Shown: positions 55,164 to 60,722 of the stretch, in pieces
Layout of the letters: the number at the start of each line of letters is the position of its first letter
Numbering within the stretch: the first letter of the stretch is position 1
Origin: Flavobacteriales bacterium
GTDB lineage: Bacteria > Bacteroidota > Bacteroidia > NS11-12g > UBA955
Reading direction: 5' to 3'
NCBI GenBank assembly: GCA_947463095.1
Contig: CANHRE010000006.1
Location: forward strand, 1 to 62,665
Length of the DNA: 62,665 nucleotides
Made by a program: the position numbers and the translations under genes
Notes under the pieces: generated by a model
Database searches by the model: none
Told to the model about the DNA's origin: nothing
Seen by the model: only the letters and a program-made list of their open reading frames with translations

Positions 55164-56150
55164 ATGCCCCAGCAACGCATTTTATTGGACGAGTTCATGC
55201 ACTTGCGCACGCAGGGTGTACCTATTGCCGATGTACGCAGCGAACAGGAGTTTGCCGAGGGACATATTCCCGCCGCGTTGAACATGCCGCTGCTGGTGAA
55301 CGAACACCGCGTAATCGTTGGAACAGCCTACAAACAACAGGGGCGTGAAGCGGCCATCCGCAAAGGCTGGGATCTGGCCGGGCCTCGCTTCGGGCAAATT
55401 TATCGCCATGCCGGCAGGATTGCCGGCGACAGCGGTCGCCTGTTGTTGCACTGCTGGCGGGGGGGCATGCGCAGCGAAATAGCCTCCTGGATCAGCGGCT
55501 TCGGCGGTCTGGAGGTTCTGGTGCTGGAAGGAGGATACAAAGCCTATCGGAATCAGGTGCTGGCGCGGTTGCATCAGGTGCCTGAAAACCTGTGTGTTGT
55601 GGGTGGTGCCACAGGAAGCGGGAAGACCGCCTACCTGCACCTCTTGCACAACAATGGCGTTCAGGTGGTAGACCTTGAAGGCTTAGCCAGCCACAAGGGA
55701 AGCAGTTTTGGTGCCCTGGGAATGAAGGAACAACCTTCGCAGGAGCAATTTGAAAATGCACTGGCAGACCGTTTGGCACAGCTGAACCCCGAACAGCCTG
55801 TTTGGTTAGAATATGAAAGCCGCACCATTGGCAGGCTGGTATTGCCTGAAGCCCTGTTCAATGCCATGCAGCAGGCGCCAATGCTGGAGCTGGTGCTCGA
55901 CAAACAGGAACGAGTGCAGCGCCTGTTATTGGAATATGGACATTTTTCCGTTGATGCGCTGGAAACAGCTACGCTGCGCATCGGGAAAAGACTTGGGGGG
56001 CTTAAAACGGCGCAAGCTTTAAATGCCTTGCACGAAGGGCGACTGGAAGATTGGATATCCTGCTGTCTGGATTACTACGATAAAACCTATCGCTACGGAC
56101 TGGCCAACCATAAGGGTCATATAGAACAAAAAATCTGGAGTTGGATTTGA
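55164..56150 (+). CDS. mnmH: tRNA 2-selenouridine synthase MnmH/SelU
   Basis: 328 residues. An N-terminal rhodanese domain holds the catalytic Cys97 (LLHCWRGGMRS). The C-terminal P-loop domain starts with GGATGSGKT (147-155). MnmH converts 2-thiouridine at the wobble position of some tRNAs to 2-selenouridine through a geranylated intermediate. It needs selenophosphate from SelD, which is not in this window. Whether the strain makes selenium-modified tRNA cannot be told here. Divergent from the YkuD-like gene; a terminator separates it from the rhodopsin gene. Confidence 0.93.
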   Translation: MPQQRILLDEFMHLRTQGVPIADVRSEQEFAEGHIPAALNMPLLVNEHRVIVGTAYKQQGREAAIRKGWDLAGPRFGQIYRHAGRIAGDSGRLLLHCWRGGMRSEIASWISGFGGLEVLVLEGGYKAYRNQVLARLHQVPENLCVVGGATGSGKTAYLHLLHNNGVQVVDLEGLASHKGSSFGALGMKEQPSQEQFENALADRLAQLNPEQPVWLEYESRTIGRLVLPEALFNAMQQAPMLELVLDKQERVQRLLLEYGHFSVDALETATLRIGKRLGGLKTAQALNALHEGRLEDWISCCLDYYDKTYRYGLANHKGHIEQKIWSWI

Positions 56151-56160
56151 GGGTGCAGCA

Positions 56161-56194
56161 AAAAAAAACACAGGCCTTTCGACCTGTGTTTTTT
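56161..56194. terminator. Bidirectional terminator between mnmH and rhodopsin genes
   Basis: ACACAGG / CCTGTGT (56167-56173 and 56182-56188) with flanking A and T runs. It serves both convergent genes. Confidence 0.85.
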
Positions 56195-56212: not shown

Positions 56213-56938
56213 TTAGTCTTCAGAAGAGCGGCTCAGTGAATAAATCACCAGACCGAATCCGATTTTGTTAACGGCGTCTGCAATGTTGTAAACGATGTCC
56301 ATAGAATGGCTGGCAGCTGCTGGGTCGGAAACAAGTTGCATTCCGAACAGTCCGCCGGGAGTACCCAGGATGTAGCCGAGGGGATAGATTGCCCAACCAA
56401 CCAGTACAAACCATGCGAGGATATTCACAGCTTTAGCAACCTGAGGTCCTGCGGTTTTAGCAAGCTTAGCAACATCACCGAACCATACCAGGTACACGAT
56501 GTAGAAGTAAGCAAGACCAGAAATAACACCCCACATAACGCTGTTTCCGCGGTCAATGGTTTCACCGAAGTAACCGGTTACCAGCATCACCAGAGAAGCG
56601 GTGATCAGGGTCCACATAAGACCAATCTTTGCACCAGCTTTGCGTGTGATGAGGTAGAACTCAACGCACATCAGCGGCACAGTAAGAATCCAGTCTACAT
56701 AACGGAAGAAAGTAGGGGAATCTCCAGTTTCCAGGTTGTAACCACGCATGTAGTAGTAGTGTACTGCCGCGATGAAGGTAATCAAGCCAGATACAAGGAT
56801 GGAAGTTCTCCACTTCGGGCTGGTGTTACCCATTTCGAAGAAGAAGAAAACGGACGCGGCCATCATGGCCATGGTGCCGATAAAGAACGTAAAGGCTACG
56901 TAATTGTCGGCGGCGATTTTGAGTGATTCTAGTACCAT
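56213..56938 (-). CDS. Proteorhodopsin-type light-driven proton pump
   Basis: 241 residues with seven membrane helices. Helix C carries the counterion Asp82, Thr86 and Glu93 (RYVDWILTVPLMCVEF). This DTE set is that of outward proton pumps, not of sodium (NDQ) or chloride pumps. His60 partners the counterion, and the retinal Lys is in ADAVNKIGFG (Lys225). Met90 sits at the spectral tuning site (105 in GPR), usual for green-absorbing Bacteroidota proteins. Gly137 aligns without gaps to the fenestration site (Phe152 in GPR, Gly156 in xanthorhodopsin), allowing a carotenoid antenna. No retinal-synthesis gene is in the window. Own promoter; terminator downstream. Confidence 0.95.
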   Translation of the reverse strand: MVLESLKIAADNYVAFTFFIGTMAMMAASVFFFFEMGNTSPKWRTSILVSGLITFIAAVHYYYMRGYNLETGDSPTFFRYVDWILTVPLMCVEFYLITRKAGAKIGLMWTLITASLVMLVTGYFGETIDRGNSVMWGVISGLAYFYIVYLVWFGDVAKLAKTAGPQVAKAVNILAWFVLVGWAIYPLGYILGTPGGLFGMQLVSDPAAASHSMDIVYNIADAVNKIGFGLVIYSLSRSSED

Positions 56939-57031: not shown

Positions 57032-57362
57032 TGCAAAACCAAGACTCTGGGCATCTCAAGTGCTTGATAATCATTGGCTTGAGGGGCGGTTTTGTTTTTT
57101 TTATTACCAGCTGCGGTTAATTCAGCGCCGGTCAAGTTGAACGGATTGTTCATATCAGAGCGTTTCTTTTAAGAAGGTTTATGCTGTCTGAAATGTTGTG
57201 TATGTTTCACTCAGACAGGTTCCAACATTATGAAAATCTCGGGCAAAAAACCTCAGCATGTTGATAACTTATTCATTTTTTGGGCGAGTTTGTGGATTAC
57301 TGACTTGAGTGCCAGTCCAAGGAGTCTTGTTTACCCTCCTATTGCTCAGCAGTGCTCCTGAT
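57032..57362. other. Divergent intergenic region between rhodopsin and ileS
   Basis: No gene is recognised. The stretch is AT-rich and separates the two divergently transcribed genes, each with its own -7 box. No clear operator or riboswitch-like fold was seen; in particular I did not find a T-box arrangement for ileS. Confidence 0.5.
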
Positions 57363-57370
57363 TATCTTTG
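57363..57370 (+). promoter_or_regulatory. -7 promoter box of ileS
   Basis: TATCTTTG is followed by CGCCC and lies 19 bases before the ATG at 57390. The context resembles the metG, cysS and tRNA promoters. Confidence 0.6.
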
Positions 57371-57389
57371 CGCCCTTAGAGCAACGATC

Positions 57390-60300
57390 ATGATGTACCG
57401 CACCTTGAAGCATGTAAACTGGCCCGACTTGGAACTTGGCGTGTTGGATGCCTGGAAGCGTGCGGAAACCTTCCGGAAAAGTATTGAAAACCGAAAGAAT
57501 GCGCCGGCATTCACTTTTTACGAAGGTCCGCCAAGCGCCAACGGTATGCCCGGTATCCATCATGTGATGTCTCGTGCGCTCAAGGATATCTTTTGCCGCT
57601 ATAAAACACTTCAGGGCTACCGCGTAGACCGCCGCGCCGGATGGGATACCCACGGACTGCCCGTTGAACTGCAGGTTGAGAAACGCCTCGGCATCACCAA
57701 AGAAGACATTGGTAAATCCATCAGCATCGCTGAGTATAACCGCGAATGCCGGAAGGACGTGATGCAGTTCAAGGACACCTGGGATAACCTTACAGAGCGC
57801 ATCGGCTTCTGGCTCGACCTGGAACAGCCCTATATCACTTACGAAAACAACTATATAGAGTCGCTGTGGAACCTGCTTCAACAACTGTATCAAAAAGGCT
57901 TCCTATATAAAGGTTATACCATTCAGCCCTATTCACCAGCGGCAGGAACCGGCCTGAGCAGCCATGAACTCAATCAGCCCGGAACCTATAAACAGGTGAG
58001 AGATACCACCGTGGTGGCCCAGTTTAAGATGCAGGGCAGCAGCGACGAATACTTGCTGGCCTGGACTACCACGCCCTGGACTTTGCCCGGTAACACCGGT
58101 CTGGCCGTAAGTGCCGACATAGAATATGTGCAGGTACAAACATTCAATCCTTACACAGGCATTCCGGTTAAACTGTACCTGGCCCACAACCTGCTGGGGC
58201 GCTGGTTTGATCCTGCCGGGGCAAATGCTCCTGCCTCCGACTGGAAGCCGGGCGACAAAATCCTGCCCTGGAAGGTACTGAAACACCTTAAGGGGCGTGA
58301 CCTGGAAGGACTGCGCTACGAGCAGCTGCTGCCTTATGTTCAACCCGAGAGCGGCGATAACTTCCGCGTTGTTTGCGCTGATTTCGTAACCACCGAGGAT
58401 GGCACCGGCATTGTTCACCTGGCACCCAGCTTCGGCGCTGACGACTTCCGCACCGCCCAGCTCAACAACCTGGGTAGCCTGACCACGGTTGACCGCCAAG
58501 GCCGCTTTGTTCCGGAAGTGTCGGATTTTGCAGGAGAATACGTGAAAGAAGCCTTCCTGAGCGAAGACCAGAAAGAGGCTGCACGCCTGCATCAGGGGCG
58601 CGACAAATACCTCAGTGTTGACGAGCGCATCGCCATCAAACTGAAACAGGAAAACAAGGCCTTCCGCGTTGAAAAATACGAACACAGCTACCCCCATTGC
58701 TGGCGTACCGATAAACCCATCCTTTATTATCCGCTGGAAAGCTGGTTCATCCGCACCACCGCGGTGAAAGACCGGATGGTGGAACTCAACAAAACCATCA
58801 ATTGGAAACCCAGGGCTACAGGAGAAGGTCGTTTTGGTAACTGGCTGGAAAATCTGGTGGACTGGAACCTGAGCCGCAGTCGCTACTGGGGCACACCTTT
58901 ACCCATCTGGCGCAGCGAAGACGGCACGGAAGAACGCTGTATCGGCTCGTTGCAAGAACTGAAAGAAGCCTGCCGGGAAGCAGTTCAGGCCGGCCTGATG
59001 AAGGGAAATCCCGTTGATCAACCCGACTTCGAATTGCACCGCCCCTGGGTGGATGATATTGTGCTGCTCAGCCCGCAGGGTAAGCCTATGCGCCGCGAAA
59101 CAGACCTGATTGATGTTTGGTTCGACAGCGGCGCCATGCCCTATGCCCAGTGGCATATGCCCTTCGAAAACAAGGAACAGTTTGCACAAAGCTTCCCCGC
59201 CGATTTCATTGCCGAAGGGGTTGACCAGACCCGTGGCTGGTTCTTTACGCTTCACGCCATAGCTGTAATGCTGCACGACAGCGTAGCCTATAAAAATGTG
59301 GTGGCCAACGGACTGGTGCTGGATAAAAACGGCAACAAGATGAGCAAGCGCCTCGGCAATGCCGTAGACCCATTCACCACCGTTGCGCAATATGGAGCCG
59401 ATGCACTCCGCTGGTATATGATCAGCAATGCGCCACCCTGGGACAACCTGAAATTTGACCTGGAAGGTATTGCTGAGGTGCAGCGCAAGTTTTTCGGTAC
59501 CCTCTACAATACGTACAGCTTCTTTGCGCTTTATGCGGGTTTGGATGGCTTTGTGTTCCATCCCGACAGCCAAATACCCTATGAGCAACGCACCGAGCTG
59601 GACCGCTGGATTCTGAGTAAGCTGCATTCCCTGATGGTACAGGTGGAGGCGGCCATGGATGATTACGACCCTACCCGCGCTGCCCGTGCCATAGAGGATT
59701 TCGTGGCCGAGCAGCTCAGCAACTGGTATGTGCGCCTCAGCCGCCGCCGCTTCTGGAAAGGAAGCATGAATGAAGATAAACAGGCGGCTTACGAAACGCT
59801 GTTCGAATGCCTGCTGCGGGTGAGTGAACTCATCAGTCCGATATCGCCCTTTTTCAGTGAATGGCTGTATCAAAGCCTAAGTGACCCCATGCGCAAATCC
59901 GATTCCAATCAAATCCACGAATCTGTGCATCTGAGCAATTTCCCCAAACACAGGGAAAACCTCATCGATCAAGAACTGGAAGCAACCATGCAGGTAGCGC
60001 AGAGCCTGTGCAGCATGGTGTTGAGCATACGGAAAAAAGAAAAACTGCGTGTACGGCAGCCGTTGGGCCGCATCATGGTTCCGATTTCCGGAGCAGATTT
60101 CCGGCGCAGGCTCGAACATGTGGAAGCCCTGATCCTCAGCGAGGTGAATGTGAAGGAATTGCAATACCTGGCCGAGGACAATGAAGTGCTGGTGAAGAAA
60201 ATACGACTGAATTTCAAGGCCCTGGGGCCCAGGGTTGGCTCAGGAATGAAGGACCTTCAGGAGCAGGCGAAACACTTCAGCCAGGAACAAATCAGGGAAC

Positions 60301-60722
60301 TCGAAAAGAATGGTAGCATCGTGTTGAACCTGTCTTCCGGTCCGTTCGAATTGTTCCTGCAAGAAGTGGAAATAAGTTCAGAAGACATTCCGGGCTGGCA
60401 GGTGGCTACCGATGGCAACCTCACCGTGGCCCTGGACATCACGCTCAACGATGAATTGATTGCAGAAGGCTGGGCCCGCGATGTGGTGAACCGCATCCAG
60501 AATATGCGCAAGGAAAGCGGCTTGCAGGTTACCGATCGCATCGTGGTATCTTATGCAGCCGATGATCAACTGGCCGATGCCTGCACCCGTTTTAGCGCTT
60601 ATATTTGCGGCGAAGTTCTTGCTGATGCCATGAACCGCGTGGAAGGTGAAGTAGGGGAAGCGGTTGAATTAGAAGGCAAAAGCATTAGTATTCATATCAT
60701 ACCATCCTTAAATATCCCCTGA
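57390..60722 (+). CDS. ileS: Isoleucyl-tRNA synthetase
   Basis: 1,110 residues from ATG 57390 (MMYRTLKHVNW). The class I signature region is GPPSANGMPGIHHVM (about 46-60), where the HIGH motif takes the Bacteroidota form GIHH. KMSKRLGN lies at about 650. The editing CP1 domain spans about 190-400 and the anticodon-binding domain starts near 720. The long C-terminus exceeds that of E. coli IleS (938 residues) and matches the longer eukaryote-like group with an extra C-terminal domain. It charges tRNA-Ile. The dksA-like gene follows at 7 bp, and lspA after that: ileS-dksA-lspA is a common Bacteroidota order. Confidence 0.96.
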   Translation: MMYRTLKHVNWPDLELGVLDAWKRAETFRKSIENRKNAPAFTFYEGPPSANGMPGIHHVMSRALKDIFCRYKTLQGYRVDRRAGWDTHGLPVELQVEKRLGITKEDIGKSISIAEYNRECRKDVMQFKDTWDNLTERIGFWLDLEQPYITYENNYIESLWNLLQQLYQKGFLYKGYTIQPYSPAAGTGLSSHELNQPGTYKQVRDTTVVAQFKMQGSSDEYLLAWTTTPWTLPGNTGLAVSADIEYVQVQTFNPYTGIPVKLYLAHNLLGRWFDPAGANAPASDWKPGDKILPWKVLKHLKGRDLEGLRYEQLLPYVQPESGDNFRVVCADFVTTEDGTGIVHLAPSFGADDFRTAQLNNLGSLTTVDRQGRFVPEVSDFAGEYVKEAFLSEDQKEAARLHQGRDKYLSVDERIAIKLKQENKAFRVEKYEHSYPHCWRTDKPILYYPLESWFIRTTAVKDRMVELNKTINWKPRATGEGRFGNWLENLVDWNLSRSRYWGTPLPIWRSEDGTEERCIGSLQELKEACREAVQAGLMKGNPVDQPDFELHRPWVDDIVLLSPQGKPMRRETDLIDVWFDSGAMPYAQWHMPFENKEQFAQSFPADFIAEGVDQTRGWFFTLHAIAVMLHDSVAYKNVVANGLVLDKNGNKMSKRLGNAVDPFTTVAQYGADALRWYMISNAPPWDNLKFDLEGIAEVQRKFFGTLYNTYSFFALYAGLDGFVFHPDSQIPYEQRTELDRWILSKLHSLMVQVEAAMDDYDPTRAARAIEDFVAEQLSNWYVRLSRRRFWKGSMNEDKQAAYETLFECLLRVSELISPISPFFSEWLYQSLSDPMRKSDSNQIHESVHLSNFPKHRENLIDQELEATMQVAQSLCSMVLSIRKKEKLRVRQPLGRIMVPISGADFRRRLEHVEALILSEVNVKELQYLAEDNEVLVKKIRLNFKALGPRVGSGMKDLQEQAKHFSQEQIRELEKNGSIVLNLSSGPFELFLQEVEISSEDIPGWQVATDGNLTVALDITLNDELIAEGWARDVVNRIQNMRKESGLQVTDRIVVSYAADDQLADACTRFSAYICGEVLADAMNRVEGEVGEAVELEGKSISIHIIPSLNIP

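Follow-up and report, generated by a model that had tools for sequence, protein, structure and literature searches.

A proteorhodopsin with a predicted pocket for a hydroxylated carotenoid, and a CrtY-Blh fusion protein, in a Flavobacteriales genome

The rhodopsin gene and its locus

The window analysed here, a stretch of 62,665 nucleotides from a Flavobacteriales genome, carries on its minus strand the only rhodopsin gene of this 2.6-Mb genome (95.66% complete). The open reading frame starts with an ATG at 56938 and runs down to a TAA at 56213 (56213-56938), encoding a 241-aa protein that matches the Pfam family PF01036 (Bac_rhodopsin) with 143.9 bits against a cut-off of 24.6. Residues D82, T86, M90, E93, G137 and K225, which an earlier note on this DNA had singled out, are all found in the translation at the positions it gave.

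Two plus-strand neighbours, both named by eye, flank this gene: a selU/mnmH-like gene at 55164-56150, which converges on it, and a divergent ileS-like gene at 57309-60722, whose true start probably lies downstream of 57309, near 57391. Just 3′ of the rhodopsin stop codon, the minus strand can form a hairpin with a GAAA loop followed by a T run (56168-56189). Its predicted fold has a free energy of -21 kcal/mol and a z-score of -5.55, and none of 200 shuffled sequences was equally stable. A and T runs flank this hairpin, which lies between the converging rhodopsin and selU-like genes and is likely to be a two-way terminator common to both; it was absent from the output of a simple terminator scan. 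Because the terminator hairpin directly follows the stop codon, the rhodopsin gene appears to be monocistronic. No match to a Bacteroidota-type promoter pattern was found near the gene. Another species of the genus repeats the order SelU, rhodopsin, IleS, with a rhodopsin 95% identical to this one; the locus is therefore real, and a binning error is ruled out.

An AlphaFold2 model of the protein (mean pLDDT 84.9, pTM 0.82) is weakest around residues 191-200, with a block pLDDT of 57. Its first structural match is 9jou (VIA-align Z 30.1, rmsd 2.1 over 228 residues, 63% identity; Foldseek E-value 6.6e-18), which is titled 'zeaxanthin-bound light-driven proton pumping rhodopsin, NM-R1'. We take the source organism of NM-R1 to be Nonlabens marinus. 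The fold, which matches both NM-R1 and green proteorhodopsin (GPR), the D82/T86/E93 triad and the retinal lysine K225 together place the protein among the DTE proteorhodopsins. Because all listed structural matches are rhodopsins of similar fold, we give weight to sequence identity and pocket residues rather than to the fold.

A fenestration glycine shared across the lineage

The earlier note had proposed that Gly137 (helix E; codon at 56528-56530, minus strand, computed from the ORF start) occupies the site at which a small residue opens a fenestration for a carotenoid antenna. Alignment with antenna-binding rhodopsins confirms this placement: Gly137 falls opposite Gly156 of xanthorhodopsin (XR), Gly153 of Kin4B8 and the corresponding glycines of Gloeobacter rhodopsin (GR) and NM-R1, with the preceding tryptophan as an anchor, such that W136-G137 pairs with W-G in all four. 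The XR sequence used matches 3ddl at all 273 residues. The glycine at the XR Gly156 position that marks carotenoid-binding rhodopsins is thus present here. The closed-fenestration GPR has a bulky residue instead. An ungapped alignment of Gly137 to GPR, also claimed in the earlier note, holds for the net spacing from the counterion to this site, which is 55 residues in both proteins, but not for every alignment: one MAFFT run set Gly137 opposite a GPR proline with a gap close by, and a local-pair alignment set it opposite a phenylalanine. The fenestration assignment is independent of the GPR alignment.

We examined how widely this site is conserved. G137, Y189 and T193 are invariant in all 80 of the nearest relatives (82-90% identity), nearly all of which are labelled Bacteroidota and many of which come from lakes or ponds, judging by their record titles. 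Beyond these, 29/29 other rhodopsins from this family and order carry the glycine too, even at identities as low as 57%, so its occurrence is not due to chance. A published survey found a 'diagnostic glycine' in every Bacteroidota proteorhodopsin of its subtree I (PMC13043013), and for this reason the rhodopsin itself comes as no surprise. The glycine is a known, fixed, lineage-wide family trait that is not special to this gene.

Two groups of relatives stand out. Six divergent rhodopsins among these 29 (L129, L134, L138, L139, L142 and L143; 57-60% identity) keep the glycine and have a methionine in place of the threonine, as in xanthorhodopsin; these could differ in carotenoid preference. 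Five others, 82-88% identical, come from records labelled Methylotenera (L013), Bdellovibrio (L062), Proteobacteria (L066), Polynucleobacter (L087) and Myxococcales (L088), and may reflect mislabelled metagenome-assembled genomes or gene transfers.

A helix-F pocket resembling that of NM-R1

On helix F, beside the expected position of the carotenoid ring, codons 189-193 (56360-56374, minus strand; Tyr189 to Thr193) correspond to Kin4B8 Y204-S208, with Pro194 next. The four pocket residues are Tyr189, Ile190, Thr193 and Pro194, for which NM-R1 has Y, M, T and P. The published equivalents are Y204, A205, S208 and Y209 in Kin4B8, as listed by Das et al. 2025; Y, M, M, A in XR and Y, L, M, L in GR; and Y, M, T, D in KR1 and Y, I, T, E in EinA29G6 (all PMC12308411). 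For XR and GR these residues are taken from the published table, as their MAFFT columns shift in the helix-F loop.

At Kin4B8 positions 204 and 208, rhodopsins that bind 3-hydroxy carotenoids have a tyrosine and a polar residue, respectively (PMC12308411), and Y189 and T193 provide both. Zeaxanthin binding by Kin4B8 fell to 2% with the S208A substitution (PMC12308411), and Thr193 accordingly suggests a hydroxylated ligand. At position 209, binders may also carry a polar Tyr, Asp or Glu, whereas P194 is found here; since zeaxanthin-binding NM-R1 also has a proline, a polar residue at this position is not strictly required.

The same proline bears on what a bound carotenoid would do. In Kin4B8, Y209F lowers energy transfer from about 40% to 18% (PMC12308411), and with Pro194 in place of this tyrosine, and of the Asp or Glu of KR1 and EinA29G6, transfer could be weak even with a carotenoid bound. 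A carotenoid in the pocket might thus serve to make the pump faster or more stable while passing little energy on to retinal, a reading that we regard as a serious possibility, though not the favoured one. It would fit the loss of the Tyr209 hydroxyl, which matters for transfer in Kin4B8, the Thr-Pro pair common to NM-R1 and this protein, and the title of Fujiwara et al. 2025 on carotenoid-binding rhodopsins of marine Bacteroidota, which, as cited in PMC13043013 and PMC13093654, speaks of 'photocycle-accelerating pigments'. Against it, flavobacterial KR1, which is without that tyrosine, still transfers energy with a hydroxylated carotenoid (PMC12308411). In addition to an antenna role, or in place of it, the carotenoid may influence the photocycle.

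Carotenoid synthesis genes elsewhere in the genome

The earlier note had found no blh or carotenoid genes in the window and concluded that the pigment must come from elsewhere. The window indeed holds none, but the supply need not lie beyond the cell: a search of the genome for blh, crtZ and crtI recovered all three, crtZ and crtI on contig C34 and blh on contig C103. On C34, crtD, cruF, crtZ, crtI and crtB form one cluster in one direction. The CrtZ protein (151 aa; L009:14120-14575, minus strand) shares 46.8% identity, across 93% of its length, with the product of the gene beside crtB in a Pantoea carotenoid cluster, and scores below threshold in Pfam FA_hydroxylase and in all NCBIfam models. 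An apparent absence of crtZ, first suggested by the Pfam FA_hydroxylase search, was overturned by this gene, and automated crtZ surveys would miss CrtZ in this lineage.

The same crt gene set, together with crtA-OH, leads to myxol in Nonlabens spongiae (PMC11855829). Based on gene content, the native ligand is likely a 3-hydroxylated carotenoid and probably a monocyclic one, of the myxol or saproxanthin type, perhaps with zeaxanthin alongside. This prediction draws on crtB, crtI, crtZ, cruF, crtD and the CrtY-Blh gene described below.

We also considered a keto-carotenoid as the native ligand, as in xanthorhodopsin. In XR and GR this glycine does allow a keto-carotenoid to bind (PMC12308411), but Thr193 is polar where those proteins have methionine, and crtZ is present in the genome. 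Furthermore, no carotenoid ketolase was recognised by eye among the genome's two PF00487 matches, which resemble a fatty-acid desaturase and an AlkB-type hydroxylase. As neither resembles CrtW, we rejected a keto-carotenoid supply and consider such a ligand highly improbable.

A CrtY-Blh fusion as the predicted source of retinal

The least expected result, though off target, is the form of the blh gene. Contig C103, separate from the rhodopsin contig, encodes a 639-aa protein (L001:283-2202) that joins a lycopene cyclase domain (residues 7-358) to a Blh (beta-carotene 15,15'-dioxygenase) domain (407-633), the latter scoring 120 bits in TIGR03753 against a cut-off of 95. Conservation of four histidines in the Blh half (414, 467, 564 and 627) is complete or nearly so across 89 Blh sequences. 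We did not find a second lycopene cyclase of the CrtY-half family in the genome. On sequence grounds, this fusion protein is the predicted source of retinal.

Fused chains of 639-715 aa occur across loci (also L011, L014, L015 and many others). The fusion is present at the rhodopsin locus in 50 of the 80 near relatives, and in 44 of the 80 it lies directly downstream of the rhodopsin gene, on the same strand and within 250 bp. We compared 57 genomes from the genus, family and order, which are related and not independent. Of these, 37 have a rhodopsin, comprising 22 with a fused-length CrtY-Blh, 12 with a single Blh and 3 in which no Blh was found; of the 20 lacking rhodopsin, 19 are without Blh and one has a fused frame. 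Its occurrence in 22 other relative genomes and at 50/80 loci rules out an assembly artefact. A tree of 49 Blh rows places the fused forms together with two single ones on one branch (100/100), which fits one fusion followed by two later splits; one of these two single forms may be a frameshift.

A union of lycopene cyclase and Blh is known from the protist Thecamonas trahens, as part of CrtI-CrtB-CrtYcd-Blh (PMC10016063), in which the cyclase type differs from that of the bacterial protein. No description of a bacterial CrtY-Blh appeared in the literature searched, which is weak evidence of novelty, most subscription papers being outside its scope. As a tentative and rather doubtful proposal, the fusion, with no other cyclase of its family detected in the genome, would both close the ring for the 3-hydroxy carotenoid and cleave beta-carotene to retinal, its internal channelling setting the ratio of retinal to antenna. 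If true, the pump, retinal enzyme and antenna pigment of this lineage would share one branch point. CrtY-Blh is in any case well suited to studying how beta-ring carotenoids are divided between retinal and antenna within a cell.

CrtZ relatives are found in 51 of the 57 genomes, against 37 with a rhodopsin, and most rhodopsin-less relatives therefore carry CrtZ as well; the rhodopsin is thus not the only reason for keeping the pigment. This pattern, along with a monocistronic rhodopsin gene far from the crt cluster, would be compatible with an open pocket that is ancestral baggage in a retinal-only pump, the carotenoid serving to protect the membrane from oxidation. The invariance of G137, Y189 and T193 among the near relatives and the zeaxanthin bound by NM-R1 in a nearly identical pocket both speak against this, and we judge it improbable.

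Proposed function

We consider it probable that the protein, one of the Bacteroidota proteorhodopsins, is a light-driven outward proton pump whose pocket takes a 3-hydroxy carotenoid made by the cell itself, as an antenna, an aid to the photocycle or both. The gene, its residues, the pocket match and the pathway genes are observed; from these we infer pumping, binding, the identity of the pigment and its effect as parts of the best explanation. In such a mechanism, retinal would sit on Lys225, Asp82 would accept the Schiff-base proton and Glu93 would return one from the cytoplasm. Gly137 would leave an opening beside the retinal ring, into which the 3-hydroxy ring of the carotenoid would fit, against Tyr189 and Thr193. 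The pigment would be made through CrtB, CrtI, the cyclase half of CrtY-Blh and CrtZ, while CruF and CrtD would modify its opposite end. Once bound, it would pass blue-green excitation to retinal, speed the photocycle or do both.

The earlier note had suggested that this pump could use a hydroxylated carotenoid to harvest blue light, and the two parts of this suggestion are separable. An outward pump that binds such a carotenoid is the most likely reading, and binding is well supported by homology, given the fenestration glycine, zeaxanthin-bound NM-R1 as the closest solved relative and a polar Thr193 as in KR1 and EinA29G6 (PMC12308411). Light harvesting by the bound carotenoid is plausible.

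Comparison with known systems

Rhodopsins of this design are known already and are widespread among Bacteroidota, which makes this one a good but ordinary addition. Record titles trace the relatives of its lineage mainly to lakes and ponds; from this lineage the protein contributes a well-supported antenna-type candidate among proteorhodopsins, and its predicted native pigment is now named and testable.

Of the known rhodopsins, NM-R1 is the most similar, sharing 63-64% identity, the DTE triad with a Met tuning site, the fenestration glycine and the helix-F Tyr and Thr-Pro. The present protein differs in having Ile190 where NM-R1 has Met and in its longer F-G loop; its gene stands alone, and its host belongs to another Bacteroidota lineage. 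KR1 (Dokdonia eikasta) and EinA29G6, compared by their published pocket residues, are proteorhodopsins that bind zeaxanthin and lutein and share the Tyr and Thr at Kin4B8 positions 204 and 208 (PMC12308411), but have Asp or Glu where Pro194 stands here. GPR (7b03) shares the DTE triad, the fold and 47% identity; besides its bulky fenestration residue, it differs in a Leu tuning site and a Tyr at the Thr193 position. Kin4B8, XR and GR have the fenestration glycine, DTE and the conserved Tyr in common with this protein, yet are only 31-34% identical to it, against 64% for NM-R1, and XR and GR carry Met rather than Thr in the pocket, with 4-keto carotenoids as their ligands (PMC12308411). By these identities the protein is not classed as a member of the xanthorhodopsin family, though it may work like one.
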